A stretch of 64,000 nucleotides of DNA, from positions 23,479,105-23,543,104 of the forward strand of contig OZ020523.1 of NCBI GenBank assembly GCA_963971425.1, read 5' to 3'. The stretch's first letter is position 1. The number at the start of each line of letters is the position of its first letter. The DNA comes from Bryoerythrophyllum caledonicum (taxonomy: Eukaryota > Streptophyta > Bryopsida > Pottiales > Pottiaceae). The translations under genes and the position numbers were made by a program. The notes beneath the pieces were generated by a model. The model ran no database searches and was not told where the DNA came from. It saw only the letters and a program-made list of their open reading frames with translations. Shown here one piece after another: positions 6,764 to 61,913 of this stretch.

Positions 6764-8005
6764 AGCCCCATTAGATTTCAAGATAAATACCTCAAAAAAC
6801 AAGATCTAGTTAACAATCTGAATTTAATATCAGAAAACTTCCCCACCATAGACAAATTGATCGGGAACAACAACATTGACAAGGAACTCTTTACAAACTT
6901 TTGGAAAAATCCCACAATCAAAGATTTACAAAAAACATGTCTTATAAAATTTTGTACTGGACAATGTATGGGAAATGCCCGCAAACAATTATTCTTTGGA
7001 ATAGAACGATTTCCACATATAATTTGTCCAATATGCACTTCCACATACCCGGACACATGGCTACACATACTTCTAAAATGCCAAAACCATCACATACACT
7101 CTCTAATCATCAGTAGACACAATAAAGAAGTATAGGAAATCTGAAAACTAATTATATCCTCAAACAAATCTTGATGCTTTATACTTATGAACGCCGGAAC
7201 CTTCAACAACAATTCACTGGAAAACACGGTCCCTCCATGGCTACTTCCATCCACATGTAGAACCCAAAGATGTCATAGTAATTCGAGATTCACACATACT
7301 ATGCGTCAAAGGATTATTATACAAACCCCCATCGGACCACATAAATACAAACCTTACTATCCAATTTATGGAATTCAAATATTGTAATGATAGATTTTTC
7401 CCAAAAGCAATTGAAAAAAAAATATTTAAATACCAACCACTTATTAATGACATTGCAACTCTTGGATGGAAAGTTGATCCGCTCACTATCATTACCGCTG
7501 GAGCTAGAGCGACTACCTTTATCCCTTCTATGCAAAGTCTCAAAAAAAAATTCAATATCCCCACTAATCCAATTAAAAAGACATTCAAAGAAATTAACAC
7601 CATCGCTATCCAACCTGCAATGTCCATACTTCTACACAAACGTAAACTCAAAAACAACCAGCCTCTCCCACAATTATAAGATACCTCTTAAAACCCTCAT
7701 AAAAACACACATTCAACCTTTACATATCATCTCTTGGAATTAAGCCTTGTAGGTCCGGGTTACTCCTTACTTGTCACTTGTTATTGGCTACATAGTCTCT
7801 ACCCTCAAGAGGGGGGAATAGTTCCATACTACTAAACCTATGTCGGGTGGACATAGATTTAACGGTGGAACTAGTGAAGAGAATGAACAAACACTATATT
7901 CACGTCGGTCCCCTTCGGAGACCGGAGTTCTTCTTTTAGTGGTGGAACAAACATACACTTTATTCACTCCGGCCCTCTTTCATGGACCAAAGTTCTTCTT
8001 CTTCT
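6764..8005 (+). mobile_element. 5'-truncated non-LTR element, copy A
   Basis: The 3' third of the same retrotransposon family as copies B and C. Homology begins abruptly at GPIRFQDKYL, downstream of RNase H, and covers the CCHC knuckle (CPIC...H...C near 7030-7080) and the restriction-like nuclease region. It then runs through the conserved 3' UTR to a (TTC)n tail ending at 8005. The frame is broken by stops (7132 and 7139 region) and shifts after 7260, where the KPD motif seen in copy B is lost. Truncation at the 5' side is the usual signature of target-primed reverse transcription. It shares wording with copy C (QNHHIHS) more than with B (QNPHIHS), so A and C look like one subfamily. Flanking target-site duplications were not found. 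Confidence 0.85.
7802..7856 (+). other. Structured 3' UTR of copy A
   Basis: Three small hairpins in a row: CCCTC/GAGGG with an AA loop, a weakened AATAGT/ACTACT stem, and CTATGTC/GACATAG (7838-7856). The third stem pairs although its bases differ from those in copy B. This is the likely element-RNA recognition region for reverse transcription, by analogy with other stringent-type LINEs. Confidence 0.55.
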
Positions 8006-9926
8006 CACGGAATGTGGAACCACCGGAATTCCACCGACTAATTTCTAGACTTTTTTTTCCACATTTTGTTAATTATCTGTTTAATGTCGTTTTTGCTTAA
8101 TGAAACTAAGAGTTATAAAAACAAATGTGAATCTAAAGAAGCCTAAAAAGTAGAATCATGATACCAAAACCTACGATTCCAAATTAGTATATTCTTTTCT
8201 TATACAAGAAAGTTGCAAAAATATTATATATTGTTCATAATTGATAATATTCATGTTGAGATTTATTGAGCTAAATGGTATTTAATTGATTTGTATGGGG
8301 ATATCGTTGCTTGGTCAATTGAACTCTACATGTGACATGTTTGAATCGAGTTGGAACTTTAAATGAAGGTTTTTCTAAGCCATCTCTACATTTCAAATGA
8401 ACGTCAACAATGAAGGTCAACAATGAAAGTCAACGATGTCGACAATGAAGGTGTTATTGAGGAAGTACCGGTGCCAAACAATGGTAATGAAGGCATGAGT
8501 TTACAACTCGTTGAATGAGTTAATATGCAATTTCTCCCGTATTTGGCATTTTCATTCAACAATTCCCCACTTAATTCGGCATGCATTTTTCTAACTAATA
8601 AACGCCGAACTAGAGGTTTGCCTACGATATTCAAGCATTCTATTCAAGCATAAGGATGACAAGCAAAATACGAAGGTTTCACATCTCCGCCACTTGGAAT
8701 CGCGTCGTACGAGTGGGGCAAGTCTTTCTGTATCTTTAGTGCTGACTCATTTGTCTGTAATGTACAACATCCACTGTTTGGACAGAACTCACGCGGAATC
8801 CCACCGACATCCACTTGTTTCTGTCCAAACAGTGGAGTCTGTACACCAGCCTTGTCTGTACAGACAAGTTCCGAGCCTGTGCTGTATTTAGCGACAGAAA
8901 TTGTTCATTCGATGGGCGGGGGCAGAGGATTCGTCTCGTGGCATCGACGTTGATAGTTAGACGGCTCACTCGAGCTTGTAAGAGCGATGCAGAGGGTACA
9001 CTTGTTTGAAGCGAAGTCCTTTTCAGCTGGAACGGTACATCCTCGCTAAGAATGCTCTCAAAACCGGTATCACTTTTGAGGAGCTTCTAGCTTGTTTTAG
9101 AGTGCTCGTAGAATTGAGGGGTTGGGCTCTAGCTGTTGTTTATTGGTCATTACTGGCTCTTCTCTGTTCTTGGCGTGGGCTTCAACTGAGAGTCCGAACT
9201 TCAGGCTTGAATTACTGACATTCTGGAGATTGCTGGAGAAAGGGTTCTGTACTTGCTGCTTGAGACTCGTCCCCGGCGCTTCAAGCCTTCCGCATCTTTG
9301 TCGTAAGGTACGAAAATGAACACCGCCATTAGAATATTGTTTGTTCCTAGATGTTGAGGGCGATGGTAGCAATTATCATACGCGAAACGAATCCAGATGG
9401 CATCATAACCCTTTGTCCATCGTAGTTATCAGTCGTGACGTGAGTGGTAAAATAGAAAACTTGAGCGATTTGATAATCTGCTGCCGTTGCCGACATTTCA
9501 AAAGTTTGACTAAGCTTATTCCCTATCATCCACCTTTACTAGTTGTTATACTAGTATTGTATCTCGATCACTCTTTCGAGAGCCTTTGAGCGTTTGGTAA
9601 TAATTACAATCTTTTGAACACAGGGTCAGTAATATTGTTCTCTGTGCGGGCAGAATGAACCAGAAGAATTTCTTTTTTTGCGAGAAAACTGACCGTGATC
9701 ATAATGAGCATCGTTAAGTTATTAGGTTTACTCTGCCTGGCTTGGCTGAATGTTTACCGTTCCGGTGATGAGTTCATATTTCGAAACCACACAATCCAGA
9801 TTGATGCAGTGCAGACTGTCTTGTGGGCCTAAATTCCTCAAATTCTCTGGAAACAATTTCAACTTAGAGCCATCTTTTCGATATTGTGAATTCTATTTTA
9901 CAACAAAGTTTTTCATGCAGAAGGAG
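8006..9926. other. Intergenic DNA and kinase 5' region
   Basis: No convincing coding exon. It contains the inverted repeats at 8761-8868 and probably the promoter and non-coding 5' exon of the kinase gene. A plausible 3' splice site (TTTTTCATGCAG) ends at 9920, just before the chosen kinase start. Confidence 0.4.
8761..8868. repeat. 27-bp inverted repeat plus 18-bp palindrome
   Basis: Arms 8761-8787 and 8819-8845 are reverse complements over 27 bp with about three mismatches, separated by 31 bp. The core of the arms is CACTGTTTGGACAGAA. Immediately after comes a perfect 18-bp palindrome, CTTGTCTGTACAGACAAG (8851-8868), which shares TGTACAGA-type sequence with the arm ends. It may be a small foldback transposon or a dyad-symmetric regulatory site; the sequence alone does not decide. 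Confidence 0.65.
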
Positions 9927-12461
9927 ATGGAGGCCATGGATATGGTACTGGAGCCTATTCCTCAAGTTTCTGACGCCTTGACAACTATTCGATATGTTAC
10001 CGACATTTCCAGTAAGTTTTTGATTAACAAGCATCAGTGCGAGCGTCTGGCAGCTCGCTATGGCGCCATCGGTGAGAAACTGAAAGAGGTGTCGAAAGGA
10101 TTTGTCGGTGCCAGTGCCGAATCAGACAGCAACAAGGTGGAGTATCCTGCATTTGATTACCTCCTCACAGTTCTGAAGAAAGGGAAGGCCTTGCTGTCGA
10201 AGTACATAGAGTCAGAAGCCAGCATCGCGAGCGTGCTCACTCAGACAGAGGATCGAGAGGCATTCGAGGAGATACATGCGGATCTAGACATCATGAATTC
10301 GTTGTTTCAGTTTGAGGACTTCGAGCACACCACGGAGAAGGAGAGGAGCGTGGTTTTCACCCAGGACGCTGAGAAGGATCGCAGCGAGATGTTTGATAGT
10401 TTGGACGAGTTGGCTCCAGTTTTAAAGAACCATGTGGACGATGTGAAGTCGGTGGTTTCTGAGAAAAGCAGTACTACCAGAGATGGTGAGTTGCCGTCCT
10501 ATCTGAACATTAACCCAGTCGTTGTTGAAGTCTATGATCCGGTGCGAAACCCGGAGAGGAAGAGCAAGCATGATCCACAGGAGACCATTGGCTGGGCGCT
10601 TGTGCACAAGGGCAGCTGGCTCGGCTGCAAATGTGCTCTCAAGATCTTCAAATCGAAGGATCCGACTTGGAACAGGAACGAGCTCTTGAAGGAGGTATGC
10701 TCGCTCATGAAGCTCCACCACCCCCACGTCGTGCAGCTCATGGGGTTCGCCCAGAACGACGAGCAGTGCTTGATTTTGATGGAGCTCATGGACACTGATC
10801 TGCGCCACTTCATGAACCAGCGTTGCTGCAGTGAACCAAAACGACGCCCCTTCACTCGGGTTCAGGAGCTGGACATCATCACCCAGATAGCCAAAGGCAC
10901 GTATTACTTGCACGAACAGGGTTATGTGCACGGGGAGCTGAAATGCTCCAACATCCTCGTCCAGCAGATTGGCGGTTACATCGATGTGAAGATCTCTGAC
11001 CTCCGAAGCTCCCAGAAGCTTCAAGACGCTTGGGATCCCGTGCTGTTCAGGGAGAGGGGTCTGAGGAGGCGGCCGCGATGGACAGCGCCGGAGGTTCACC
11101 GTTATGGCGAATCACTTGAGCTGCCGACACATGAACTCTTGAAGAAAACCGATGTGTATAGTTTTGGTATGGTTTGCTTTGAGGTAGTGACAGGAAAGCT
11201 ACCGTTCCAAGATATAAGAGGGGAGGCATTGGAGAGACGGATTGCGACAGGGGAGCTGATGCAAGAGCTTCCAGGCGAGCTGGATCCCAAGTTGAGAGGA
11301 CTGATAGAGTCTTGTTGGGAGCGTGACCCGAGTAAACGGCCATCATTTGAGACCATCTGCCATGTGCTGAACGACATCAGAGCTTCACAGCTTGCCGTTG
11401 CGACCAAGTCCTCTGGGATAGAGTATGTGCAACGTCTTCTCAGGTTGATTCCGTGGTTGTTGGGCCAGTTTGGAGACAGAGTAGAGAGGAGTGGAACTTC
11501 TAGCACATGGGGGATCTCACCTGCTGAAGCTGATGGATCAATGGAAGTGGATACAGATAGCGATTTGGCATTACCCGAGTTTGTGAGGATTGATCCTAGT
11601 GACCTGAAAAAGGTGCGACTCATTGGAGAGGGCTCCTTTGCGAAGGTCTATGAGGCGACATGGCTGGGCTGCAGATATGCGGTGAAGAAGATCAAATCAC
11701 CGTCACCAGTGTCGGTGCAACAAGAAGTAAAATTTCTGGTTGAGCTTCGACATCCTTCGATTGTGCGCCTGATGGGCTTAGCAGTACACTCGGACCGCCA
11801 GTGCTCGATTGTGATGGAATACATGGGCTGCAGTTTGAGGCAGCTCATTGAGTACCGCAAGCGGAAGAGGAAACTCGGCAGTCACTCAGTGCCTTTTGAG
11901 TTTCACGAAACTGTGTTGATCATTACCAAAATTGCGTTGGGGATGGCGTTTCTGCACTCCAGGGGTGTAACCCACCGGGACTTGAAGGCGGAAAACGTTC
12001 TGGTTCCCGAGCATTCTGGCTCCATCGATGTGAAGATCGCAGACTTCGGTGTGTCGCACCTCATTGATAGCGCCCAAAAACCTTTGCTAGGTGTGGGCTC
12101 TGCCTTCTGGCGTGCGCCTGAAGTGTTTCCTCGACCATCAGACGCTGGAGGTCACCAGCCTGCAATGATCGGCTACGACCTCAAGGCCGCGGATGTCTAT
12201 AGTTTCGCCATGACATGCTACGAGGTTGTGACAGGCGCGGTGCCACTGGACGACAAAGTCAAGGAATTAGGGCCCTCAGAGGCGACGTTGAAAGTGATTG
12301 CAGGGCTTCGACCCACGCTGCCTTCGGATCTGAACTCAGACGTGAAAGTGCTCATTGAGGAGTGTTGGGATGGGAAACCTGAGAAGCGACCCACCTTCTC
12401 CAGCATTTGCAGCAGACTGCAAAAGATTCAGCAAGCACTTCGGAACTCAGCTTGTGGCTAG
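9927..12461 (+). CDS. Tandem pseudokinase-kinase protein
   Basis: An 844-residue protein in one uninterrupted exon. Residues 1-200 form a helical N-terminal region that resembles the DUF1221/MLKL-like domain of plant tandem kinases. Domain 1 (about 218-490) keeps the Lys (CALKIF, near 238) but has HGELKCSN instead of HRDLKxxN (near 333) and DLR instead of DFG (near 357), so it is probably catalytically dead. Domain 2 (about 566-836) is complete: GEGSFAKVYEA loop, YAVKK lysine (584), HRDLKAEN (682), DFG (705) and an APE motif. It should be a cytosolic Ser/Thr or dual-specificity kinase of the RAF/TKL type. The open frame extends upstream to ATG 9750, but the extra 59 residues look like UTR or intron and a 3' splice site precedes ATG 9927, so I start there. 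Substrate unknown. Confidence 0.9.
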   Translation: MEAMDMVLEPIPQVSDALTTIRYVTDISSKFLINKHQCERLAARYGAIGEKLKEVSKGFVGASAESDSNKVEYPAFDYLLTVLKKGKALLSKYIESEASIASVLTQTEDREAFEEIHADLDIMNSLFQFEDFEHTTEKERSVVFTQDAEKDRSEMFDSLDELAPVLKNHVDDVKSVVSEKSSTTRDGELPSYLNINPVVVEVYDPVRNPERKSKHDPQETIGWALVHKGSWLGCKCALKIFKSKDPTWNRNELLKEVCSLMKLHHPHVVQLMGFAQNDEQCLILMELMDTDLRHFMNQRCCSEPKRRPFTRVQELDIITQIAKGTYYLHEQGYVHGELKCSNILVQQIGGYIDVKISDLRSSQKLQDAWDPVLFRERGLRRRPRWTAPEVHRYGESLELPTHELLKKTDVYSFGMVCFEVVTGKLPFQDIRGEALERRIATGELMQELPGELDPKLRGLIESCWERDPSKRPSFETICHVLNDIRASQLAVATKSSGIEYVQRLLRLIPWLLGQFGDRVERSGTSSTWGISPAEADGSMEVDTDSDLALPEFVRIDPSDLKKVRLIGEGSFAKVYEATWLGCRYAVKKIKSPSPVSVQQEVKFLVELRHPSIVRLMGLAVHSDRQCSIVMEYMGCSLRQLIEYRKRKRKLGSHSVPFEFHETVLIITKIALGMAFLHSRGVTHRDLKAENVLVPEHSGSIDVKIADFGVSHLIDSAQKPLLGVGSAFWRAPEVFPRPSDAGGHQPAMIGYDLKAADVYSFAMTCYEVVTGAVPLDDKVKELGPSEATLKVIAGLRPTLPSDLNSDVKVLIEECWDGKPEKRPTFSSICSRLQKIQQALRNSACG

Positions 12462-20429: not shown

Positions 20430-23400
20430 ATGAAGATCAATTCCAGGCCACAATGTGCACAAGACCAACGCCAAGATACAAGATCAGCCCACGAGATTCA
20501 ACAAACCCAAGGACCAGATAAGTCTCATATGTGTATTCTGTACTTAGGAAAATTTCAATACTTCTTATGCAAACTTGATAATAAGATGCTAGGGACTGCT
20601 GATGTTGTGTTATATATGATTAACCCCTATTACAAGGAGCCACAAAGCTACCATAGATCGAGAAGAGCAGCACTCGTACGCCAGGTACAAAGCAAGGAGC
20701 AACAATACCCAAGGAAGACCACCAAGCCACCTGCAAAAGAAATGCACCGACGTCAACGCTCTGCAACCACCAAAACCAGCAACAAAACCAAGACAAACAA
20801 CAACAACGACGCAACTCCCATCATGGCCAAGGTACGTTTCCAAAACTCTAATCTAACCATTTTCTGCTTGTTGTTACATATCATCAGGAAAAACCACGAA
20901 CTCTCAAGACGGGCAGCCAACAGAAGAGGAATACACAGACAAGACAAACAGGAGGCGAATAAAAACTCAACATCGACACACATGAACCTACCGAAATCAG
21001 GAATGAAGGAAGAACAAATCCGCAGATCCCAATACTGCTTCTGCACACTTAGTGGTAAGGTCCCAAGGACTGCTGATATTGTGGTATACATGACTAACCC
21101 CTATAACAAAGTGCTACAAAGCTACCATAGATCGAGAGGAGCAACACTTGTACGCCAGGTGCAAAGCAAGGAGCAGCAGTACCTGCGGAAGGCCACCAAG
21201 ACACCTGCGACAGAAACACACCAACGTCAACGCTCTGCAATCACTGAATCCATCGCCAAACCCAAGACAAACAGCAACAACGACGCAACTCCCATCATGG
21301 CCAAGGTACGTTTCCAAAACTCTAATCTATCCATTTTCTGCTTGCTGTTACATATCATCAGGAAAAACCACGAACTCTCAAGACGGGCAGCCAACAACAG
21401 AAGAATATACAGACAAGACAAACAGATGGCGAACAAAAACTCAACATCGACACACACGAACCTACCGAAATCAGGAATGAAGGAAGAACAGATCCGCAGA
21501 TCCCAATACTGCTTCTGCAAACTGAATGGTATGGTTCTAATGACTGTTGATGTTGTGTTATGCATGACTAACCACTATAACAAAGAGCCACAAAGCTACC
21601 ACAGATCGAGAAGTGCAGCACTAGTAGGCCAGGTACGAAGCAGGGAGCAGCAGTACCCGAGGAAGACCACCAAGTCACCTGCAAAAGTAATGCACCGATG
21701 TCAACGTTCTGCAACCACCAAAACCATCGCCAAACCCAAGACAAACAGCAACAACGACGCAACTCCCATCAAGGCCAAGGTACGTTTCCAAAACACTAAT
21801 CTAACCATTTTCTGCATGTTGCTACTTATCATCAGGAAAAACCAAGAACTCTCAAGATGGGCAGCCTACAGTAAAGGAATATACAAACAAGACAAACAGG
21901 AGGCAAACAAAAACTCATCACCGAAATACGTGAACCTGCCGCAATTAGGATTAGAGGAAGAACAGATCCGAAGACTCCACAACTTAAGAAGACCTAGGCA
22001 ACACACAAAAACAAGATGCGAGCACAACCAGCTTCCACAACGACACACAAAAACAAGATCTGTGCACAACCAAGTAAGCGCCCACATAACTCTACCACCT
22101 TTATCCTCCCACTCTTGCAATTTCTTTCCAGATGATTACAGGAACAATGAGAAATCCACAAAGACATACTGCCAACTACTGTTGTTACGAAACCCTAGCC
22201 GTCATAACATTCCAAAAAATGACAAATCCATGAAGGACCAAGATCCAACATTTCATCTACAACATCAGAACCGCCCAGCTGAAGTCAAACGGCACTCTGT
22301 AGGAACAAACCCTAAACGGACACAAACTCAAGAACAACAACTTTCATCGAACACAACGACATCCACTAAACAACAATCCTCCACAAGGTATATAACACGA
22401 TACCATCTACCTCTTGAATCCTCTCACTTTGCTACACTACGCACATGCATTGTCTCTGCCTCTGCCTGCGTGAAGGATACATACCTGTGGAGAATCCAGC
22501 AGGAGAAGGAGCCACCGCCCTTGCAGCTGACAAAGACTCACCACACCCGTGAAGAACTCTCCCCTCTTGTCTTCCAGTTGTTTTCGTTGTTTTCGTTCTG
22601 CACCTCGTCTAGTCATGAATCAACTGACCCCAATTTATTGCTGATTCACTCCCTCCAGATCGACTTATGCCTATGCAGGACAGAAGAAATCTCAGAATCA
22701 GGGGAGAAGCCACTCATTCAACACACGAGGTTAGCAAGGCGGCAAACCAGATCCAAGCCCAAGCGGGAGGTATCTCACCTCATAGTTACGGAGGTGCTTG
22801 ATACACCTTCAGCAGTGAAGAGCCGTGGAACAGTCCCGGCAAACCCTGATACGATACCGAAGCTCGCAGATCTTGCAGGATCGCCCAGGCGCCCCCAACC
22901 CACCACGACCCTCGCCATCAACAATAGCTCTCGGTACTGTACCTGCATTACACGAAAAGAAGTCAGCCTGTGGTTCACTGCAATCGCGACAGCAACCAAC
23001 AAGGACGGGTGCACAAGGAATCAAGCCGTCAAGGGAAGCCAGCGACAACTACTACATATGTCCCGGCATCGACTTACTCCATCGCACCTGACCTCATTGC
23101 ACAAGAGAAGTCAAAATCGACTCCGCCAGAGCGATCTGTACGCCCTACGGCGCAATCCCAACTTGGAAGACATGTGGGCTGAACTCAAGAGTCGGAGCGC
23201 GGGCGTCGATAGCAACGCAGGAAGCCCTACCGTGGCAGGCGAGGGAGTAAGCCCGGACGCCACAAACCTTAGAGGCCGCCCGAGATCAAGAACCCCAGAA
23301 ACCGCTCCCACGAGCCGCAGTCTCCATAAGCGCCGCAGCCTCGACAGCCGCTGCCCTCACAGTCGTGTAAACGCCGCAAACTGTACAGGGAGCGCCCTTG

Positions 23401-24485
23401 GGCACCAGAGCCAGCGACAAGCTCGTCACCAAGCCAAGACAAGTTGTGCAGAGTATCAAGAGCGAGCGCCCGAAGTTAGAGTCCAGACTCAGATACGAAG
23501 CACCCTAACCTACGGGGCAGGCGAGAAGAAGCCCCAGACAGAGAACCAGAGCGGGAACCACACCAACCCCAACGGTCACCCGACGCCTACAGCAGGCTCA
23601 ATACAGTACGTATGTTATCTACCATTACTAACCAGTTCATGTTGCTCAGCCACGAATTGGCAACAAGTTAAGTTCATACTATCAAGTCATAGTTCTCTCC
23701 CACTCTACTCTCTGATTAGTAGTATTTCTTCTCATTGGGTTTATTATGCAAACCAATGGGCATGTGCACAAATCCTAATATCAAAATTGTTTACTTGGGG
23801 AGGTGACCTCTTTTATGGCACCTCTTATGTGTGTGTATGGATAATAGTCTCTAAAAGTCATAAACTCATCTCCTCCCAATTAGAACTCTTAGAAGTTAGG
23901 GGTCAAGGTGCTTGCTTGAATGACATCTACATTACTGCTCTATTCTCCTTCTTGATTACATTAACTTCACCAAGCCCTCAACGCATGTTGTGGGAAGAAG
24001 TTAAAATCAAGGTGATAAGGAGTAATACTATAGTGACCCTACACTTTACCGCTAGTGACACTATTGTGTTTGTTATTGACAAATTGGCTCAACTCCAAAC
24101 TATGGCTACCCCCTCTAAGAGATTGTTTATAGAGGCAGTTGAGGAAAATGCATGTACCGTAAATATACCTCCAAATGCATTAGCAGTTGCAAATACCTCC
24201 CAGAAAAAGGTGAAGGCAACAAGTTTGCCTCACACCGAATACTGGTTAGGGTTCAACACAATGAACACTCTTGCAAAGAAAAGTGGTAGCCCCAAAGTAC
24301 CATTGATTACCTTAGAAGAATTAGTGCAAAAAGGTTTAAGTCCTATAGAGGCAGCTGAAAATGTTGAAGCAATACCATCTTTTCCTTTCGTCCCTCAAGG
24401 GGAATGGCCCTCGAAAAGAATCGATGGGAAGTTGGGCAACCACTTCAATCTTACCCAACTTCCAAGTGAAGTTGAGGTAGATTAA
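20430..24485 (+). other. 1,351-codon open frame upstream of ORF1
   Basis: One frame stays open from ATG 20430 to TAA 24483, crossing the three 474-bp monomers and running in frame into ORF1. The product before residue about 1,225 is polar and rich in Lys, Arg, Gln, Asn and Thr and matches no domain I know. The strand is poor in G, which lowers stop frequency, and 474 being a multiple of three preserves the frame through the repeats, so openness alone does not prove translation. It could be an ORF0, an N-terminal extension of ORF1, or chance. The intron-like segments inside argue that the real transcript may be spliced differently. Confidence 0.35.
20601..22022 (+). repeat. Three 474-bp tandem monomers in the LINE 5' region
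   Basis: GATGTTGTGTTA-like starts occur at 20601, 21075 and 21549, so the period is exactly 474 bp (158 codons). Long stretches are nearly identical. Each monomer contains a 56-bp segment with a perfect donor (AAG|GTACGT), pyrimidine-rich 3' part and CAG acceptor: 20832-20887, 21306-21361 and 21780-21835. Tandem 5' monomers act as promoters in some animal L1 elements; a similar role here is inference. Confidence 0.8.
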
Positions 24486-25669
24486 GTTGGTTTTGCTTTA
24501 GATTACCAAGTTTCAATTCACTTTGAACTTGGTGATCAAACATGGGGAAAGGAGGCTGTATTAGAGAAAGTCAAAACAAGGCTAAAAAACATGGGGATTC
24601 CCTTGGGCACTCGGATTGGTGAACCAGTAGCAATATTTTGCTTTCACCAATCCGAAAAATGGAACGGGGTGGTGAAATTACACCTAGAAAACCCGGAGAA
24701 AGATGGAAAAGGGCTGCTAAATGGTTTGAGGCCCTTCATTCTGACCTTGAATGAAGGAATTCCACATCTAGGCAAAGTGTGAAAAACATACGATGCTTTG
24801 GCCTTTTCGCACCTCCTATCGGTCAAAATCTCCGGTCCCAACCTTGCCAATAGAGAGTCATGTGACCTACACAATGAGATTGTAAAGGATAGTTTTGCGA
24901 GAGGATATGATTTTGAAGTCACAGGGATAGAAAAGAAAATCATCTTTGAGTTTGCATGGGTCAAAACCCCCTCTCCCATGCAAGCGGCCAAGGTTAAGGA
25001 CTACAAAATCTCATTGCACAATGAGATCTTTGTACCAGCCTTTGCACCCCGGAAGATGGATGAGGATGAGATTGCAAAAAAGAATTGTCTAATTCTCATT
25101 GCAAAAAATCTCAACAAAACAAAAAGTGAAAAAGAGCTAGCGGATGGGATAAAATCCATACTAGGGGTGGAGAATGTGGTTGATACATTCTTCAAACTCG
25201 AACATGGTCGGCATGTAGGAACTTGCAACATTGAGTGTTTAAATGCCGCGGTATATAAAAAATACGTCAAACAAAGTAAACAACTCCACGGCAAGTACAT
25301 CATGTTTACCCCCCACCCCAAAAGTTTGGACGGGAGTACAAACCAAGTGTGGATGAATTGACAAGATTAGGGTTTTCGGATGTAAACGCTGTTGTAGCAA
25401 ATGCAGTAATTGCCATGGAAAATGGCCCAATCATAAACAATGGTGTCACCCTACAACAACTCCGAAGAAAAATGAAGACTATGAAAGGGGAAATCGTGGA
25501 AGAAGCTAGACAATACGCGGACCTAGTGCAAGCTAACACGGTAAAATCCCTTAGAGGGGAAATGTCAACCCTACGCTCTCAACTCATTGCTACCATCATG
25601 GCCGCTGAATCTCAAGCATCGGAGCGGGAGCAAAGAGCCATTGAGAACAAGATGGATATGTCAAACTAA
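24102..25669 (+). pseudogene. LINE ORF1, RRM-like and coiled-coil protein (broken)
   Basis: Start chosen at ATG 24102 (MATPSKRLFI). About 520 residues would be encoded. The frame is interrupted by TAA 24483 and TGA 24780, continues in the same frame to 25361, then shifts by one near 25330-25349 and ends at 25669. Around 25081-25320 a segment with CLILIAKNLN, a short helix, and a second strand (HVGTCNIECL) resembles an RNA-recognition fold. The C-terminal part (25440-25660) is heptad-like and charged, a probable coiled coil. This matches the general plan of LINE ORF1 proteins, which coat the element RNA and trimerise. Domain identity is by eye and should be treated as tentative. Confidence 0.65.
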
Positions 25670-25789
25670 TAGCGTCAAACAACGCTACAACTATAGTATA
25701 TATATACTAAAAAACATAGTAAAAAAACACTAAAAATATATATGAATACAAACAAAAGAAAATTAAAACATATTATAGTATACTTATAT

Positions 25790-25790
<1 letters not shown>

Positions 25791-25831
<41 letters not shown>

Positions 25832-25832
25832 C
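25791..25832 (+). repeat. (CAA)n microsatellite, about 13 units
   Basis: An uninterrupted CAA run between ORF1 and ORF2 of copy B. In the 2A frame it encodes poly-Gln; in the frame of the nearest upstream ATG (25742) it encodes poly-Thr. A length change here could have broken the ORF2 start. Confidence 0.9.
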
Positions 25833-25871
25833 TCTACACCCCTCCCTCTAAAAACCATAAACATTACTCAT

Positions 25872-25922
25872 TTGAAACTACTAATTATACTTTGTGGAGA
25901 CATAGAAACTAACCCCGGCCCA
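25872..25922 (+). other. 2A-like (StopGo) motif at the start of LINE ORF2
   Basis: The frame reads LKLLIILCGDIETNPGP. It matches the 2A consensus D-[VI]-E-x-N-P-G-P exactly, with the Gly before Asp and the Leu/Ile-rich stretch that precedes active 2A peptides. 2A causes ribosomes to skip the Gly-Pro bond, giving two proteins from one frame. The frame is open from 25779 but holds no ATG before the motif; the nearest ATG (25742) is in another frame, joined only if the CAA tract slipped. After the motif the frame continues (MPNVFLNH) to a TAA near 25953. The 2A position, N-terminal of the APE domain, is where animal and trypanosome non-LTR elements carry it. Confidence 0.8.
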
Positions 25923-27289
25923 ATGCCAAATGTCTTCCTCAACCACCCAAAAACACATAAAAGAGTATCCAAAATCTATTTCATTCCGAACACTATAAAA
26001 CTCCACCCTGAATACTAACATCTAGCATCCTCGTTTGCCCCACTTCTAAAAAATAACCACATACTCCACCATACTTATTCCACCCTCTACCCCAACATTT
26101 CCCATTACATACATCAAAAAAATGACCACCCACCCCCACATATCTTATTCGCCTTAATTACCACCCTCCACCCTTCAATAGATGAATGCAACAACATCAC
26201 CAACCAACACTCTACCAACACAAACCCTACACATTGGACAAATATATTATTAAACACCCTATCCTCCTTACACAATCCCCCTGAAAGACATATAGATATA
26301 CCCCACCCCTACACTAAATTTCTAGAAGAAAACCAACACCTTCTTGAACACAAAACTTCTTTACACAACGACCTGTATAACTTTATTCATAGCCAAACCT
26401 CACCCCCTTCTCCAGATGAACTACAACTAAAATTTCCTTATTTCCCGCACAAACTTATCCTTGAAGCCCTTAGATGCTTTGAACCTATTCATGACTACAC
26501 ACACCCACGCCAACACCCGCTTACATTTCCCCCCCACTCTACAACCACGAAAACATAGATAATAGAAACACATACATTACTACATGGAACGCCTCAACGT
26601 TAAACACTGCCCTACCATGCATCTACAACCTAATCACCCACACCAACACACCACCCGCCATCATTACCATACAAGAAACTAAAATAACCGCTACTAAATC
26701 CACAAAATACATACAAAAGTTATTCCCAAACTATAAAATTATTTTCAACAACACCCACTCCCTCACACGATGCATCCAACAACGAAGACCATATACACCG
26801 GCAAGAGGAGGTCTACTCATGCTCATACACCAATCATATGCTTTCCCCGGGAATATTACTAAAATCCCTACCCCGGCAAACATTTCACCATACACTATAA
26901 GAAACCCGTGTTTTTTGTTATGTCCTTAATCATGTCAGCGTGTTTTTTTGATGTCTTGGAGCTAGCCAGTAATGTCCCCGTGAACGTGAGGATGTCCACG
27001 CGTCAATAATGAACAGTGGAGGTGGGAGGGTCCCGAAACGCGCGTGCGAAATAGGAGACGCGATGATGTCTCCAACAACGCGCCCGTCTCCGAGGACGTC
27101 ATTGAGGACATCTTGGGTGACGCAAAACTGCCACGCTGGCAGCGAACAAGCGTTTCACCTGAGGTAAGAATGTCGAAGTTATTGTTGTGCAAGGTAGAAA
27201 GCAGCCCAACGTTAAAAAAAACAACGAAACGGGCAGCGGTCTGCAAGAGGAGGAAAAAAAAGGCACGAGCCTTATAAAACTAGAGTTTT

Positions 27290-27610
27290 TTTTTTAAAAA
27301 TAAAAAATATAAAGTATATAAAATTGAAGAATATTCTGATTATATTTATTAACTTTGATCCTCTGAAATTTTTTATTTGTCCACTTCGTATCAAAATGGT
27401 TTCCAAAATAAAATTTAATTTTAAATATTAAAAATACAAAATATTAATTAATATTATAATAATATTTTATAAAAAATGATTATTCTGTAATTAAAGCGGA
27501 CATATTAAATTCAGTACTGTATATTTAAATATTAAATAATATTTATTAATTAATATAATATTAAAATACCACTTTTCTACCAAAACCCGAATTATAAGGA
27601 ATTTAGGGTG
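27290..27610. other. AT-rich segment inside the CACTA element
   Basis: Rich in AATATT and TTAATTAATA runs. No coding signal. Confidence 0.5.
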
Positions 27611-28087
27611 ATTTTGTAAAGTCCTTGGTGGCTTACCCATGTGGACATATTATATATTTTGTAGTTTACAGCACTTCATCTACATGGCAAACACAATTCC
27701 ATGTCGGACAAGGTGACACGTCATTTTGTGTATAGGTCCACGTCACTTGAGACATCCAATTGAAGATGTCTCGAGTAACGTCTACATGTCTTTGAGGACA
27801 TCCCACAGAGACGTCTCTGAAAACATCAGCAGTGTTTGGCAAAACATTGACATGTCCTGGAAAACATCGACATGTCCAGGAAAACATCATCGTGTCTTGC
27901 AAAACATAGTAGGATGAATTTCGTCAAGTTCATTGGATGAATAGAGGCGGCGAGGGTTAGCTGCTCCAGCCATAGTTAGGTCATGAGGCGGCTAGGGTTA
28001 GCTGCTGCAGCCATAGTTAGGTCATGAGACCTTTAAGTAGAATTTGAGGTTGCACAAAGCTCACTTTGGCCTTCATTTCTCCAAGTA

Positions 28088-28283
28088 GTTAGAGTTTAGA
28101 ATGTAGAGGTTGGAGTTTTAGAGTGTAGACTGAGTTTACAAGTTAGAATGTTAGAGTTTAGAGTGTAGAGGTTAGAGTTTTGAGTGTAGAGGTGAGAGTT
28201 TAGAGTGTAGAGGTTAGAGTTTTGAGTGTAGAGGTTAGAGTTTTGAGTGTAGAGGTTAGAGTTTAGAGTGTAGAGGTTAGAGG
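28088..28283 (+). repeat. 21-bp minisatellite in the CACTA element
   Basis: About nine imperfect units of GTTAGAGTTTAGAGTGTAGAG, with T/A variants (TTTTGAGTG). It lies inside the transposon and codes for nothing recognisable. Confidence 0.85.
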
Positions 28284-28507
28284 TGCAGTGTTGGACATGC
28301 AATGTGCTGTGAGCGACATATAGACGTGACCATGTTGTAGAAGACGTATGCCGCAGCACTTAGGAAACGCAGGGACGTCTTTTGAAACATCCCCGTGTCT
28401 ATGGAGACATATTTTAAATTGCGTGTATATCATATTACCACATTTGCAAGTAGGCCACTAAGCATGAATTTGGATGAATGTACATGTTACATGTAAGATG
28501 AGGTATT

Positions 28508-28578
28508 CATGTCTTGTACTCATGTCTTGTACAACATACTCATGTCTTGTACAACGTATTCATGTCTTGTACAACATC
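28508..28578 (+). repeat. Short tandem repeat TCATGTCTTGTACAACAT
   Basis: Three to four units of about 21 bp, the first shortened. It is inside the CACTA element. Confidence 0.75.
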
Positions 28579-28924
28579 TCTTGATGTCCCTCAAAACACC
28601 ATCACATACACAGCGTCAACAATACCATGCATCAGGGGATGTCACGTCAGACACGCATAAGTTCTTTGAGACGTCTGCAATGACACCCTCAGTGCCGACG
28701 ACCATGGGTCGGCAATGTATTGGAGGACGCGATCATGTCTATCGCCACGTCCTCTAGGGCATGGCGATGTTCAACGAAATCAGCATCAAAATCCAGGTAG
28801 CGTTGGCGTAGACGTCGAGCAGGACATCTCCACGTCAACTCGGGACGTCTTAAAAAACACAGCCATGTTACCAATGACGTCCCCGCAAACACGAATCTGA
28901 AAAAAAAACCACGCAAATATCTGC

Positions 28925-29011
28925 TGACGTGGCATGCCACGTCACTCTTTCCCGGGTCCACATCAGAGGCCACGTGGGTCCACGTCACATGCCACGTCAT
29001 ATGCCACGTCA
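28925..29011. repeat. Perfect 20-bp palindrome and ACGT-core cluster
   Basis: TGACGTGGCATGCCACGTCA (28925-28944) is its own reverse complement. It is followed within 70 bp by further CCACGTG, CCACGTCA and CACGTCACC motifs. ACGT cores of this kind are bound by plant bZIP factors (G-box/ABRE types). In a CACTA element they may equally be transposase-binding subterminal repeats. Confidence 0.7.
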
Positions 29012-32000
29012 CCAATGGAGAGGATGAATTTCCTGGCCATGTGGCACTGCCCGTCATCCTGCCGCTTAGGTCACAGGTGTCGTCTACGTGGCGCCCAGTT
29101 GGCACCATTTCCAACCTCCCAAAATCTCCAAAAATCGTCCCTGTCGCAAGGATGTCCTCGCGTTTTTGGTGATGTCCCCACGCGTTACAGCGTGTTACAC
29201 GCGTTGGTACGTCAGAGGGATGTAAATTCGGATGTCTACATGTCTCCTGGGACATGATTCAGGACGTGACAAAAAACACGGGTTTCTTATAGTGATATCT
29301 TCAAATCATTGAAATAACTAATCGACCCCTCCAACCATGGCTCATCCTTCACCTATATATGCCTTCACACACAAAAGACTCTAGGCTTATTTCGATAATC
29401 CAAAATTCCATCACATCACAAGTAAACACACACACTAACCACACAATAATACTCTGCGGAGACTTTAACCGGGATATTGCCCTTATTGGACGACGAAACG
29501 GAGTGATCCTTACCCCACCACTTGACATAGACTATCAATGGCAAAGGTACACGAACGATCTAGATTTACATCTAATCCCAACAGATACACAATACTCTCG
29601 TCAAGGTGGACTTAATTACGCACACACTAGCCTAATTGATGGATTCTACATTAAAACACCTAACCATACTCAATATACATCCATTACCAATACCACAACC
29701 AACTTAAACTCCGACCACTTCCCAATCCAACTCAATATACCTCACAACACCCTTATAAGCAGACCTCCCACTACCATCAACTCAAATAACATTAAAATAC
29801 TAAACCCCATTCCAAAAGAAAACCTTGCTAACTTTAACACAATATTCTTTGAAAAAAACTCACTACTAATAGACTCCCTTACCGATACTCTTTCTAACCA
29901 TCGACACCTCACACAAATACAATGGCAGGAAGCTTGTACAACTCTTGACCAAATCATTAATGAAATCTCTAGTACACTAGAAAAGACTTGCAAAGCACCT
30001 CCACTCCCACAACTCACACCTAGAACCTCGAAACAAGGGGGATATCTCCCAAGAAAGCTAGCAAAAAAGTGGAAACATCTTGTCACATACCACACGATTC
30101 GTAAAACAATTCATATCGCTAAAACTAACCAAAATTGGCGAACCCACCCTATACTCTCCGAACTACAAAACCTCCGCCACCCTGAAATCCCACAAATACC
30201 ACTACCCAACATCCATCACGAAGATTGGTTAATAGACATTGCAAGCATTGCAAAAAACGCCAATAAAGAAGCTCGGAAAATTACCACAAAATATGCAAGA
30301 GAATGTGTCAAAAAAGCCATTTCTAAGTACCGACAACTATACGAAACTAGCCCAAAAAAGATCCATAGAAAAGTCTTTAAAAATAACACAAACCTGCCAC
30401 TAGACTGCATTACAGACCAAAACAACAACATTCTAACCAACCCAGATGACATCGCAAATGAAATACATTTCCAACAATCCAGAAACAATAGTCCAACCAC
30501 CCCCCCATGCCACTTCCAACCACAACATATACCAACATGCACGTGCGGTGTTAGGCAATACCCGTGGCATGACTTGGACGGACTTACTATTGATAAAAGA
30601 GGCGTTCCAACAACACCTCTCCACACATATTATAACAGAGACACATACAACATGTGCCTAAAAAATTTAGGAACCAACAAGGCCCCCGGCCCGGACCTTA
30701 TACCTAACTCAATCCTAAAAAACATGCCCCCAAGATTCCACGATCTCCTATCACTATTCTTCCTCCACTCCTATAAACAAAAATCCATCCCCACATCTTG
30801 GAAAACAAGTCTAACAATCTTATTATACAGAAAAGGAAACCCATCCATGCTACCTAACCACCGACCTATTGCCTTAGCTAACACCATTTATAAACTATAT
30901 ACTAGCACACTAACATCAATATTATCGGCTTACGAGGAAACACACCAAATATTACATGAAAGCCAAGAGGGGTTTAGAGCCGAGAGGAGTACCACACGGC
31001 AACTTCAAACCCTCATTGTTGCACTCGAAGATGCAAAATTCACTAATAAAGACATTTACATACTCTACATCGACTTTAAAAACGCATTTGGTTCCATTGA
31101 CCATCCTCGATTACTAGCCATAATGAGCGACCTTAGGTACCCGGAAGACGCAGTCACACTGGTTGGTAATATATACTCCCAATCTACCACTACATACACC
31201 GGAGAATTCTTCGGTAAAACACGCCCTATCCCCATCCAACGGGGTACCATCCAAGGCGATACACTGAGCCCATACCTCTTTATTATCTTTCTAGAACCTT
31301 TATTGAGATGGCTCCAAAGAGGTAATAATGGCTACACATTTGGCACCTCAAAAATTACCGTAAACTCGGCCGCATATGCCGACGATCTAGCAGCCATCTC
31401 CGGTCACCTTAAATCACTCCAAATTCAATTAGTCAAAATAGACAAATTTTGTCTTTGGACTGGGATGGAACTTGGGGTCCAGAAATGTGCCGTAACTGGT
31501 TGCCCAAACAAATCCAAAATAAATCCGACCGCCTTCAAAGCCCTCATTCAAGCCACCAATATCCAATATCGTAGCCAACCAATTCCGGTTCTTAACCAAA
31601 ACCAACCCTACATATACCTTGGATTAAATCTAGTCCCATCGTTAAAATGGAAAACTCAAATCCACGCTACTACTACAAAACTTATTAAACAATGCAAGGA
31701 ACTTACATTATGTCCGGCTACATTACAACAAAAAATAAAAATGATTGATACAGTCATACGCCCGGGTATCTCATATAGTTTCTATGCGGTCCCTTATTCC
31801 ATGCCCGCCATAAACAAACTGGATAAGAAAATCATAGCCCTACAAAAGAAAGTATGCGGACTTCCTAATTGTACTCCCAATGTCATAACACAACTCCCTC
31901 ACGAACTATTTGGATTAGAAGTTTTTTCCCTCAAAAATGCCTATCTACGGTGCATTGGAGAACAACTCCAGAATGCACTTAACGACAGAGGACGACTAGG

Positions 32001-35000
32001 ACTAATCTAAAGTGGACTCCTTCGGCACATCCTTGCCATCTATGGAGGAGCACAATACCTCCAAAGACTTAAAAGATCTGATTGCCTTCGGTCCCCTATT
32101 ACCCGCACATTTTTTTTTACTAAAAACAGAAGGCCAAACATTTCTAAAAAGCACGCTAGAAGATTTCCTACTAGGCCCCGCGCCACTCGAACAAAACTGG
32201 ACAAATGAAATACATAACCTCCCAAGACTTAACCGACAATTATCCGACAAACTCTTACAAAAACTTATTTCTGCAAACATTACCGATATAAAACAAATTA
32301 CACTACCAAATGGTACACACCTTATGGACGACAAGAGCTACAAAACATTCTACGGCACCCCCCATAAATTAATAAAAAGTGCACTAAATATTGCTAAACA
32401 ACTTTTTTGTCATCCCCCATGTCTCCCTATATGCCCCAACCCTTGCACCACTCACGCCACACCATACACACTTAAAGACTCATACATCATTGATCACAAC
32501 GACACCCACCACAACATCAACCCCCCACTAATCCCCCCAAACCCGCCACATTCACGACCATATACCCCTCCACCACATATATTAAAAAATCCTTCCATAC
32601 ACCCAATAAATAACATAACCGCGCACAAACATAGAAAGTACATTGACTCTCACAACATAAACAAACAATATACGTCATACCTATGCCATTGGACCCACAA
32701 CAACACCACCTACGCCAAATGGCTCCCACAAAGAAATCTTTTCCCTTGGCACAACCCAAATACTTCCCTACATAACACTGAAATCCTCACACAATACTAC
32801 CTCAGAACTCAAAACAATTATTACCTAAATATCACACAATTACACCACCCTCAAGCACAACCTCGAGATAGAAGATTTATCACACCACCTATTATTATAC
32901 CCCTCCTTAACATCTTTACAACCGAATGCAACCCCGAAATTGACATCCTCGCACAAACAAATACAATCAAAATACAACAAGATAATGCCGACATATACAA
33001 AGATAATGGGAGACATCTAATAACCATACCACTCGCTAAACTACAATGGTTGTGGAACCAATATCACGACGCACTACGAACCCCCATTATCATTGAACCA
33101 ATACCCCAATCATTTGAAACCGAAATTGTTTGGCTATACCAAAGATATAACTACCGAATACCCAAAAATGACCCCCTTAAAAATGCACACTATACATTAC
33201 CCAACCCTATCTTAGACTACCTTATTACATCTCTGAATATAACACATTCATACTTCTCATCCCCCGTTACATGCTCCACAAAAATCTCAAAATTCTACTC
33301 TCCATTCGAACGGGATCAGATTTTTGGATCTCTTGGAAAAGCTTTTGATTAAAGGTGGAGCGGAATAGGCCTTGCACACCCTCACAACAAAGAAGAAACC
33401 CAACAAGCAATACATTGGGCACGCCTAGCGGCAAACAATGACCCTGACCGCAACATCACCATTATTATCACTCCCGACACTCATTGGTACCACAACTCTA
33501 ATCCACACTCAGGCCCATTCCCGGACTCACACATCATAGTACTATTTGAAGCTGACACTATGACTTACAAAGAACCCACTATACCGCCGCATATACAAAC
33601 ATCCCGCCTCGAACCAGCAACCCTACGTATCCTATGTATACATCACCAAACTCAAGAAATTGGTACTCTAGAAAACCTCACTCATCTCACTCTGATAGCA
33701 AAAAATCTAAACATTAACAAAGTATACACCGCAACCGCCTCTCCCACACCCATTCTAACTCGTGTAAACCGCAACAAAAAATGGTCTAAAACCCCCCACA
33801 CAAACATCTCCGCAGCACCAATTACCGAACTAAGCCTCCCCCTCCCCTACTACCAAATTAATACAGACCTTAAATTTGACCCCAACTTTAGTTACTACAC
33901 TGACGGCTCCTTTAAAGAACCAACGGAAATAAGCCCGGGACACTGGCACCGAGAAAAAGCCGGTTATGAGATTTACAATTCAACCAAACAAATTAAATCA
34001 GGAAAAAGACTACATGGACTCCAAAATATTCTAAGAGCCGAAATGATGGCTACACATAAAACCCTTAAAATAATCACAACCAAATACCCAAACGAACCGG
34101 CTCACATTTTTACAGATTGTGTAAATGTACTATACCTCCTTAATATACACATTAAACACCCTACTTTACACAACAGCCATCCGGACAAAACTATCCTTAC
34201 ATCTATGGTTGAAATGCTCCAAAACCGTACACAGATTACTACACTCCACAAAGTCCGAGCCCATGCTAATATCGACGGTAATGAACAAGCCGACAAACTC
34301 GCAAAGGAAGGAAGAGAAAAATCCCACAAGAATGCCGAACACCCGTACAAACACGCCCATGCCACCCCATATTACTTTCATAGATATGAATGGCCCTCCA
34401 TGGGAGAAACTCCCGATAAAGGCCCCATACGATTCTTAGACAAATACCTTAAAAAACATGATCTTATAAATAACCTAGAAAAACTTACAGAAAACTTCCC
34501 CAATATTGATAAATGGACTGGCAACCCAAACATTCACAACGCACTGTCCAATAATTTTTGGAAAAATCCCTTTATAACGGACCCACAAATCACATGCCTA
34601 ATTAAATTCCGCACGGGACAATACATGGGTAATGCCCGCAAACAACTCTTTTTCGGAGTAGATAGATTTCCTACAATTACATGTCCAATTTGCAACTCCA
34701 CGGACCCAGACACATGGCTACATGTCTTACTCAAATGCCAAAACCCCCATATACACTCACTAATTGTCAAAAGACATAACAAAGCCGTATGGGCTATTCG
34801 CAAACTACTTATATCATCAACCAAATCCCGGTGTTTCATTCTTATGAATGCCGGAACCTTTAATGACAACCCACAAGAAAATACGGTCCCTCCTTGGCTG
34901 TTACCCTGCACCTGTCATACTCAAAGATGCCACTGCAGTGCAAGATTCAAACCGGACCTATTATGTGTTAGAGGACTTTCATACAAAGACCCCCCACCAC

Positions 35001-35469
35001 ACCACATAGAGCCTAGTCTTACCATCCAATTTATTGAATTCACATATTGCAATGATAGATTCTCTCCAGACACCATTTCAAATAAAACAAACAAATACCA
35101 ACCACTACTTGACGATATTCATGCACTAGGATGGAAAGTAGACCCCATTATTGTCATCCGCGGGTGCTAGAGCCACCACCTACATCCCCTCAATGACAAC
35201 CCTTGAAGAAACCTTTAAAATCCCCATCACTTCAATCAAAACCACCTTTTCAAATATTAACACTATTGCAATCCAACATGCTATGTCGATACTCCTACAT
35301 AAACGTAAACTTGAAAACAAACAACCCCTTCCGGACGCCTTAAACCCCCCTCCATAGATCTACAATTTCATTTTTTGCACTTCACCGTACTTGCCCTCCC
35401 TCTTTTAAGACTCTCTGGAACCTTGGGTCCTTTGGTATCGGTTACTTGTTACTGGGTACATAGTGTCCA

Positions 35470-35523
35470 CCCTCGAAAGGGGGAAGTAGTTCCATACTAC
35501 TAACCCATGCCCGGTAGGCATGG
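35470..35523 (+). other. Structured 3' UTR of copy B
   Basis: Consecutive hairpins: CCCT/AGGG with a CGAA-type loop; AGTAGT-TCCAT-ACTACT (35485-35501); CCATGCC-CGGTA-GGCATGG (35505-35523). A CTTCGG loop follows in the GC-rich segment near 35561-35578. The first three recur at the same place in copies A and C. Confidence 0.65.
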
Positions 35524-35593
35524 ACTTAGTGGTGGAATGAACGGACACTTTACTCACGCCCGCCCCCTTCGGAGACCGGCGTTCTTCTTCTTC

Positions 35594-35605
35594 TGCGTAT
35601 GGCCT
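35594..35605 (+). repeat. Target-site duplication, right copy
   Basis: Exact repeat of 20007-20018, abutting the (TTC)n tail of copy B. Confidence 0.8.
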
Positions 35606-41094: not shown

Positions 41095-43820
41095 CCATGA
41101 TTTGGGCTGCCCCACCCTTCCTCCACCATTTGTGCCCCTATCTATTGGCCCTCTTCAACCCCAAAAAGACATTCTTACATCAAGTAATACAATCAAAGTT
41201 AATGAAGATCATGCAAACATGTACGAAGACAACGGGAGGCATCAAATCACTATTCCCGTCACTAGACTCCAATGATTATAGAACCAATATCATAACAAAT
41301 TGCAAACCTCCACAAACATAGAAACAACAATCCAACCATTCGAAACTGAAATAGTTTGGCTACACAAAAGATATAAATATTGCATCCCAAAAAATGACCC
41401 TCTTAAACTTGCACAATATACATTACCGGCGTCCATTCTAGACTCACTAGTCTCAACCTTCAACATCCAACACTCATACTTTTCAACCCCCGTCACATGC
41501 TCTACCCAACTTACTAAATTCCATTCAACATTCAACTTTCGAAAGAGACAAAAAATTTGGCTCACTAGGTAACGCGTTTGACCACAAATGGATTGGAAAT
41601 GGTATTGCACACCCCCACAATACAGAAGAAACACAACAAGCAATACATTGGGCAAGACTCGCGGCCAAAAATGATCCAATCTCTACTTCAACTCTTATCC
41701 TCACACCAGACAATAACTGGTACCAAAACTTTGACCCACACTTAGGCCCATTCCCGGATTCCCACATCATAGCTCTATTTGAGGCAGACACAATACCATA
41801 TGAAGAACTCACCCTCCCACCCAAATTATCAAATAAACCTAGGCTCGAACCATCTACCATACAAATAATATGCATTCACCACCAAAATAATAACATTGGT
41901 ACCACGGAACAACTTGCCACACTTACCTCCTTAACAAATAACCTCAATATAAGCCGAATATGTACAAAAATAACTCCACCAGCACCTCCCCAAATCCTAG
42001 TGAACCGTATCAAAAAATGGGCCCATCTTAAATATGCAAACACAACACAAACCCACCTCGCTACACCACCCCCTCTTCCCACATATCGTGACCATACCCC
42101 CTTAAAATTTATCCCTGCATATAGTTACTATACAAATGGTTCCTTCAAAGAACCAATAGAAGTCAATCTGGGACATTGGCATAGAGAAAAAACTAGATAT
42201 GGTATATACAACTCAACCACAGAAATAAAAATATCCAGAAGACCCCACGGACTTCAAAATATCCTCAGAGCAGAAATGATGGTCCTTCATAAAACCCTCC
42301 AAATTATCACTACACAATATGCTAATGAACCCACACACATCTTCACAGATTGCATAAACGTATTATACCTATTAAACACACAAATAACACATCCTACCCT
42401 CCACAATAGCCACCCTGACCAAGCCATACTAACATTTGTGGTTCAAATGTTACAAAATCGCACACAAATTACAATCCTCTATGAAGTTAGAGCACATGTC
42501 AATGTAAAAGGAAACAAACAAGCAGATAAACTAGCCAAAGAGGGACTAGATAAATCCCATAGAAATGTCAAACACCCGCATGAATACGCCCACGCTACCC
42601 CATACTACCTCCAAAGAGAAAGTTGGTCTTCTATAGAAGTCACCTTGGACAAAGGCCCCATCAGATTTCTAGATAAATACCTCAAAAAACAAGATTTAAT
42701 TAAGAACATTGATCTAATCTCAGAAAAAATTCCCTAACATAGATAACGGATTGGTATTAACAACACTGGTAATGAAATCTCTACAAACTTTTAGAAAAAT
42801 CCCACAATTACAAACTTACAAAAAACATGCATTATCGAATTTTGTATAAGACAATATATGGGAAATGCCCGCAAACAAACCTTCTTTGGTATAGAAAGAT
42901 CCCCATCCATAACATGCCCAATATGTGCATCCACAGACCCAGACACATGGCTACACGTACCCTTCAAGTGCCAAAACCATCATATACACTCTCTAATTGT
43001 CAAAAGGGACAATAAAGCGGTATGGAAAATATGTAAACTAATAATATCCTCCAATAAATCACAATGCTTTATACTTATGAATGCCGGAACCTTCAACAAC
43101 AAACCACAAGAAAATACGGTCTCGTCATGGCTACTTCCATGCACATGTAGAACCCAAAGATGTCACTGTAATGCTAGATTTAAACCACACATACTATGCG
43201 TCAAAGGACTACCAAATAAAAACCCCCCACTAGACCACATAAACTCAAACCTTACTATCCAATTTATCGAATTCAAATATTATAATGACACATTTTCCCC
43301 AGAATCAATCGATTTTTTTTTTAATAAATACCAACCACTTATTAATGACATTAGAGCCCTTGGATGGAAAGTTGACCCCCTTATAGTCAAAACGGCTAGA
43401 GCTAGAGCTACTACCTTCATCCCCTCTATGAAAAGTCTTGAAAAAACATTCAATATCCCCACTAACCCAATTAAAATACATTCACAAAAATCAACACCAT
43501 CGCTATCCAACATGCAATGTCCATACTCCTACATAAACGCAAACTAGAAAATAACCAACCCCTCCCAGATTTACACAATATTCTTTTAAACCTCTAAAAA
43601 CACATAGAAATCTACTTGGAATGTAGCCATGTGGTCTTTCGTTACTGGTTACTGGCTACTAGTTCTTAGTTACATAGTGTCTATCCTCAAGAGGGGGAAG
43701 TAGTTCCGTACTACTAAAACCTATGTCTGGTGGACATGGATTTAGTAGTGGAAGGAACAGACACTTTGTTCGCTCCAACCCCCATTTGAAGTCCGAAATT
43801 CTTTATATATATATATATAT
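41095..43820 (+). mobile_element. 5'-truncated non-LTR element, copy C
   Basis: Covers the region from just after the chromodomain-like stretch to the 3' end of the family. It contains the unnamed domain, RNase H, CCHC knuckle (CPICASTDPDTWLH), nuclease region and 3' UTR, and ends in a (TA)n run at 43804-43820. It is broken: two stops near 41275, a shift near 41535, a stop at 42735 and others. The first RNase H aspartate is changed (YTNGS instead of YTDGS, near 42130), and the nuclease KPD reads KPH. The left boundary is approximate. No target-site duplication was found. Confidence 0.85.
43684..43739 (+). other. Structured 3' UTR of copy C
   Basis: Same three hairpins as copies A and B: CCTC-AA-GAGG, AGTAGT/ACTACT, and CTATGTC/GACATGG (43721-43739, one G-U pair). 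Confidence 0.55.
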
Positions 43821-61910: not shown

Positions 61911-61913
61911 ATG
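61600..61913 (+). repeat. Duplicated segment upstream of LIP2
   Basis: 61600-61690 and 61805-61913 are related: both contain GAAGG-TTGC, TGGAAA-CGAA, TGAGCATC-AGAGATT-GGTTT and a final GCACAC. The LIP2 ATG lies at the end of the second unit. Confidence 0.65.

Follow-up and report, generated by a model that had tools for sequence, protein, structure and literature searches.

StopGo, or 2A, motifs have been described mainly in animal viruses and in animal and trypanosome elements. APE-type elements attributed to Odon 2013 reportedly carry a D[VI]ExNPGP motif upstream of the APE endonuclease and the reverse transcriptase (RT). The element described here, from the moss Bryoerythrophyllum caledonicum, is like those elements in being APE-type and in having D[VI]ExNPGP upstream of both APE and RT, but it differs from them in its moss host, in the ~215 residues that lie between motif and APE, in a PCIF1-like domain and RNase H that follow RT, and in the presence of two motifs in some frames. 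Trypanosomes and sea urchin are the retrotransposon cases of 2A named in PMC5972666, and Heras et al. (2006) reportedly described a functional 2A in frame with the non-LTR retrotransposon proteins of Trypanosoma cruzi L1Tc, in a different host. The 2A of sea-urchin NLR proteins is likewise N-terminal and likewise accompanied by a hydrophobic run, but according to PMC4981915 it belongs to cellular immune genes rather than to a retrotransposon; the same paper states that an N-terminal 2A works in plant cells. For plants themselves, a 2026 survey (PMC12846837) finds almost no StopGo in plant viruses, with six cases that are attributed to host misassignment. Among the literature matches listed, whose titles and abstract openings were covered, none reported a 2A occurring naturally in a retrotransposon of plants. 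The original prediction had suggested that the motif might extend the known range of 2A to the green lineage; the host is a moss and no plant case appeared among the literature matches listed, though an earlier plant report may exist.

The window, by which we mean the whole stretch of 64,000 nucleotides analysed (C11:23479105-23543104), contains on its forward strand, at positions 25872-25922, a segment that translates as LKLLIILCGDIETNPGP. Its core, DIETNPGP, fits the octapeptide (D/G/C/N)(V/I)ExNPGP, and a degenerate DNA pattern with at most one mismatch matched the window only once, against 0.01 matches expected from shuffles. When the genome was searched (437,360,962 bases in 894 contigs), the pattern GD[VI]ExNPGP matched exactly at 825 + 796 = 1,621 places, against 0 for the reversed-pattern control. 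By both comparisons the predicted 2A motif at this position is real, and the family that carries it is a very abundant non-LTR retrotransposon family of the moss.

The window copy, all of whose element features are on the forward strand, begins with a degenerate ORF1 at 24102-25669, recognized by six-frame reading, which ends in KMDMSN followed by its stop and is interrupted by two in-frame stops and a frameshift near 25349-25361. An A/C-rich spacer of 202 bases (25670-25871), which includes (ACA)14 at 25790-25831, leads from the ORF1 stop to the StopGo motif near the ORF2 N-terminus; in the motif frame there are 39 open codons before GD, with no ATG seen among them. An ATG follows directly after NPGP and opens a degenerate ORF2 N-terminal domain (25923-26566), the counterpart of which in another copy, L010, is modelled as all-helical. 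The first part of the APE endonuclease (26567-26901, its right end approximate) was recognized by comparison with copies L011 and L016, and is separated from the remainder by an insertion of ~2.4 kb (26902-29294, boundaries approximate) after which similarity to other loci resumes at 29295, the position where each of the 14 longest matches of a 26850-29400 query to other loci begins. Several short tandem repeats lie inside this insertion.

The rest of APE and the reverse transcriptase occupy 29295-32010, with the Pfam match to RVT_1 (1.7e-28) at 30853-31629 and a match to Exo_endo_phos_2 (4.6e-05) that falls under its cut-off. They are followed by a PCIF1-like domain at 33107-33661 (PF12237, Pfam 5.7e-08), which contains a stop at 33350-33352, by the RNase H domain at 33890-34315 (Pfam RNase_H, 1.9e-12), and by a 3' region beyond the ORF2 stop (35171-35594) that runs to ~35594-35600, the 3' end common to the copies, where matches to L032, L029, L043, L010 and L009 terminate. 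Besides the ~2.4 kb insertion, the window ORF2 has a stop at ~26016, a frameshift near 26505, and a further frameshift and stop, and its RT, PCIF1-like domain and RNase H lie in broken frames; this copy is dead. Elsewhere in the window are two more 3' fragments of the same family (41156-43803 and 6765-7935) that end at the common 3' end, a 474-base unit present three times in tandem upstream of ORF1 (20556-21974), possibly representing repeated 5' monomers of the element, and a 903-codon open frame at 9750-12461 with what appear by eye to be two protein-kinase domains.

The intact layout can be seen in L010, which is continued by L029: starting at the motif, and in frame with ORF2, 2,349 codons are open. 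The order is motif, ~215-residue helical domain, APE, RT, PCIF1-like domain and RNase H. An AlphaFold2 model of the ~215 N-terminal residues of L010 is all-helical with a mean pLDDT of 86.9, and the match to Exo_endo_phos (2.8e-06, above its cut-off) begins at residue 217 after NPGP. The motif had been placed just N-terminal of the APE domain, and this proved wrong, as the intervening ~215 residues mean that it is not directly beside APE. The RT of L010 was read by eye, the Pfam RT match coming from the window copy, and the PCIF1-like domain and RNase H were matched at 1.9e-12 and 4.3e-13, respectively. An APE-like endonuclease thus lies N-terminal of RT, as defines an APE-type non-LTR element, and the predicted location of the motif within such an element of a green-lineage host is borne out. 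Among solved structures the RT of R2 ranked best (1.6e-30) and that of L1 lower (8e-17), a ranking that is not a clade placement. A chromodomain was matched weakly (E 0.021, below cut-off) in the stretch that separates RT from the PCIF1-like domain (L010:8165-9997), and a Pfam search of the ORF1 region of L011 returned no match.

The assignment of the PCIF1-like domain (L010:9263-9820 in the intact copy) comes from PF12237 (PCIF1_WW), which was matched in all eight of the stop-free copies picked for alignment, each at 0.01 or better and the first of them with 49.6 bits against a cut-off of 31.1. PCIF1 was also the only match of the domain profile among solved structures in the PDB (E 0.52). 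The catalytic motif of PCIF1 is NPPF. Where PCIF1 has ANPPF, the eight copies have AHP followed by HN, NN or HT, so that NPPF itself is not present, and with HPH or HPN in its place the methyltransferase activity of the domain looks, from sequence, to have been lost. No title among the literature matches listed links PCIF1 with a domain encoded by a retrotransposon.

To place the motif among related proteins, we used an RT query without the motif (120 of 157 matches listed) and a query that included it (120 of 125 listed), which together yielded 182 proteins. The motif is present in 50 of these 182 listed proteins, one of which (P0120) is a distant element; in this distant retrotransposon protein the 2A-like SSDVQLNPGP lies a short way ahead of the APE domain. 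Of the listed proteins, 134 align with the motif-including query, 76 beginning after the motif site and 58 reaching it, and 49 of these 58 listed relatives have the motif, with E (39), H (6) or Q (4) at the E position. The other nine depart from it as NLGP (5), NPDP (2), NPRP (1) or SEVNPGP (1). Among the listed matches of the RT query, from which the motif was absent, 20 of the 23 that reach the site have it (15 E, 2 H and 3 Q). The case had been said to fall if other copies lacked the motif or never translated it, and this did not happen: many genomic copies keep it, as do relatives at the same site. At least 100 residues precede the motif in 30 listed proteins, and a conserved stretch of ~85 residues (around YRPRHK to GYYFINKL) is shared by 15 of these 30, which suggests, at the level of sequence, that in those 15 relatives it may represent a real leader protein.

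The hydrophobic lead-in that had been noted before the motif is also confirmed: in the window copy, KLLIILCG precedes D, which by-eye comparison with PMC12846837 places as an L-rich lead-in ending in CG. That survey describes L-rich lead-ins that end in (A/S/C)G before D, of which motif 6 is active in reticulocyte lysate, and the window copy and 22 of the 48 moss copies resemble this class (motifs 2 and 6, from RNA viruses) in having C or S, then G, before D. Across the 48 moss copies the residues before D are GG in 26, CG in 14 and SG in 8, whereas the 50 motif-bearing listed proteins, P0120 included, have CG in 34 and SG in 9. The GG of the 26 moss copies is unlike the L-rich class, since it does not appear among the D-type lead-ins listed in the survey, and so is the T found in 41 of the 48 moss copies at position 15, where S is favoured in that class. 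With respect to the E position, the survey gives H as >95% active in its native context and cites earlier tests in which Q was 26 or 56% active.

Selection around the motif was assessed with 48 distinct motif-bearing copies out of the 1,621, all selected by motif and, apart from the window copy, drawn from contig C1. They gave 31 nearest-neighbour pairs, in which codons with a single change were counted; any pair that diverged by >35% in a given stretch was left out of the count there. Upstream, codons -60 to -31 gave 14 synonymous vs 46 other changes (23%, expected 25%; 14 pairs kept) and codons -30 to -14 gave 16 vs 58 (22%, expected 24%; 24 pairs kept), so that no purifying selection was seen at codons -60 to -14 in the nearest-neighbour pairs. 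Immediately before the motif, at codons -13 to -1, there were 36 synonymous vs 43 other changes (46%, expected 27%; 31 pairs) with a p-value of 4e-4, which like all p-values here is rough because divergent pairs were dropped and pairs share sequences. Codons downstream of the motif gave 79 vs 49 (62%, expected 22%; 31 pairs). A count over all pairs fell in the same order, with 356 synonymous vs 324 other at -13 to -1 and 74 vs 240 at -30 to -13; the contrast between upstream codons and lead-in is itself rough, as the -30 and -60 windows lost the pairs that were >35% divergent. Within the motif codons the count was 34 synonymous vs 1 other, which we do not treat as evidence because the copies were collected by motif and are therefore biased. 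Judged by these counts, the lead-in to the motif looks like translated sequence under constraint, and the spacer does not.

We think it probable that the motif is a translated, working StopGo at the ORF2 N-terminus of a large moss APE-type non-LTR family, with skipping, the release of a leader and any benefit of that release being what we infer. Ribosomes translating ORF2 would leave the Gly-Pro bond at NPG|P unformed, let go of a short and poorly conserved leader peptide, and then make a separate ORF2 protein consisting of the helical domain, APE, RT, PCIF1-like domain and RNase H. The best-supported reading of the data is that such a StopGo would both release the leader and give the ORF2 protein its Pro-Met-Pro start, and the release of a short peptide from ORF2, which had been raised as a possibility in the original prediction, is plausible. 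Counting against this reading are the GG lead-in of 26 of the 48 moss copies, the partial activity of Q at the E position, the nine relatives that depart from the motif, and the shortage of open codons or in-frame AUGs ahead of the motif in a number of copies.

How ribosomes reach ORF2 bears on this reading. The ORF1 tail was matched by 18 of the 52 upstream stretches examined, representing 16 distinct copies, and the ORF1 stop is kept in 15 of these 16; L011 is without the tail. The distance from ORF1 to the motif ranges from 229 to 1,184 nt, with all three phases found and the spacer differing in length between copies; with the ORF1 stop kept and the phase variable, ORF2 is not normally reached in these copies by reading on from ORF1. 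At least 30 open codons precede the motif in 42 of 49 copies and fewer than 20 in 5 of 49. An upstream in-frame AUG is found in 22 of the 49, and in 4 of the 10 copies with at least 400 open codons downstream, with none that is conserved among the 49 copies; in 24 of the 49 there is no AUG in any frame within the 200 nt before the motif. The ATG directly after NPGP, in contrast, is present in 49 of 49 moss copies, and could start ORF2 without the motif.

A tentative elaboration, to which we give perhaps a minority chance, is that a land-plant retrotransposon lineage uses StopGo and the adjoining AUG jointly. Ribosomes that enter upstream within the A/C-rich spacer, either internally or at a non-AUG start, would drop the leader at StopGo, and scanning or reinitiating ribosomes would start at the AUG after NPGP, so that the products, PMPN or MPN, would have nearly the same ORF2 N-terminus by either route. 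Tandem duplication of a leader bearing StopGo would in addition provide some copies with two skip sites. Two motifs in one frame are found in the listed relatives P0052, P0067 and P0269, and in one moss copy, where a single open frame contains both C1:6319947 and C1:6320457 at a distance of 170 codons; in six other moss copies the upstream motif has decayed to METNPRP or close to it.

The invariant ATG also invites the simpler explanation that ORF2 starts there, by scanning or reinitiation through an AUG-poor spacer, and that the 2A-like stretch survives as a relic without being translated, or for some different reason. The 24 of 49 copies that are AUG-free in the preceding 200 nt agree with such a start, as do the retained ORF1 stop and the varying phase from ORF1 to motif, but we regard it as unlikely: codons -13 to -1 are under purifying selection, 17 of the 50 motif-bearing listed proteins (P0120 included) have L, R, K, I or V instead of M after NPGP, and the Pro codon before this ATG forces C at -3, with CC mostly following, which would make a poor start context.

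It is quite doubtful that the main role of the translated peptide is that of a hydrophobic signal at the N-terminus, with StopGo directing the ORF2 protein to two destinations. A hydrophobic run does precede the motif, and such a dual role is shown for the sea-urchin N-terminal 2A in PMC4981915, but the run is short, at ~7 residues, and we see no obvious use of secretion for a retrotransposon replicase. A chance match or a non-moss contig is barely credible given the 1,621 matches vs 0 in the control, the spread of the listed motif places, all of them on the 65-Mb contig C1, over ~36 Mb (0.18 to 36.2 Mb), which makes contamination unlikely, and the moss-like lipoyl(octanoyl) transferase gene in the same window (61911-62606). 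The identity of this gene is 89% with Ceratodon purpureus, 81% with Physcomitrium patens and 66% with Sphagnum compactum, which points to a moss host, probably one of the Bryopsida.

If active, the motif would represent a natural use of StopGo in a land plant, within a very abundant family of moss elements. The 2A use by retrotransposons would then become testable in moss, a group with laboratory models, and the family would offer a large natural set of motif sequence variants. It also raises the question of how ORF2 starts when the motif must be translated without a conserved upstream AUG.
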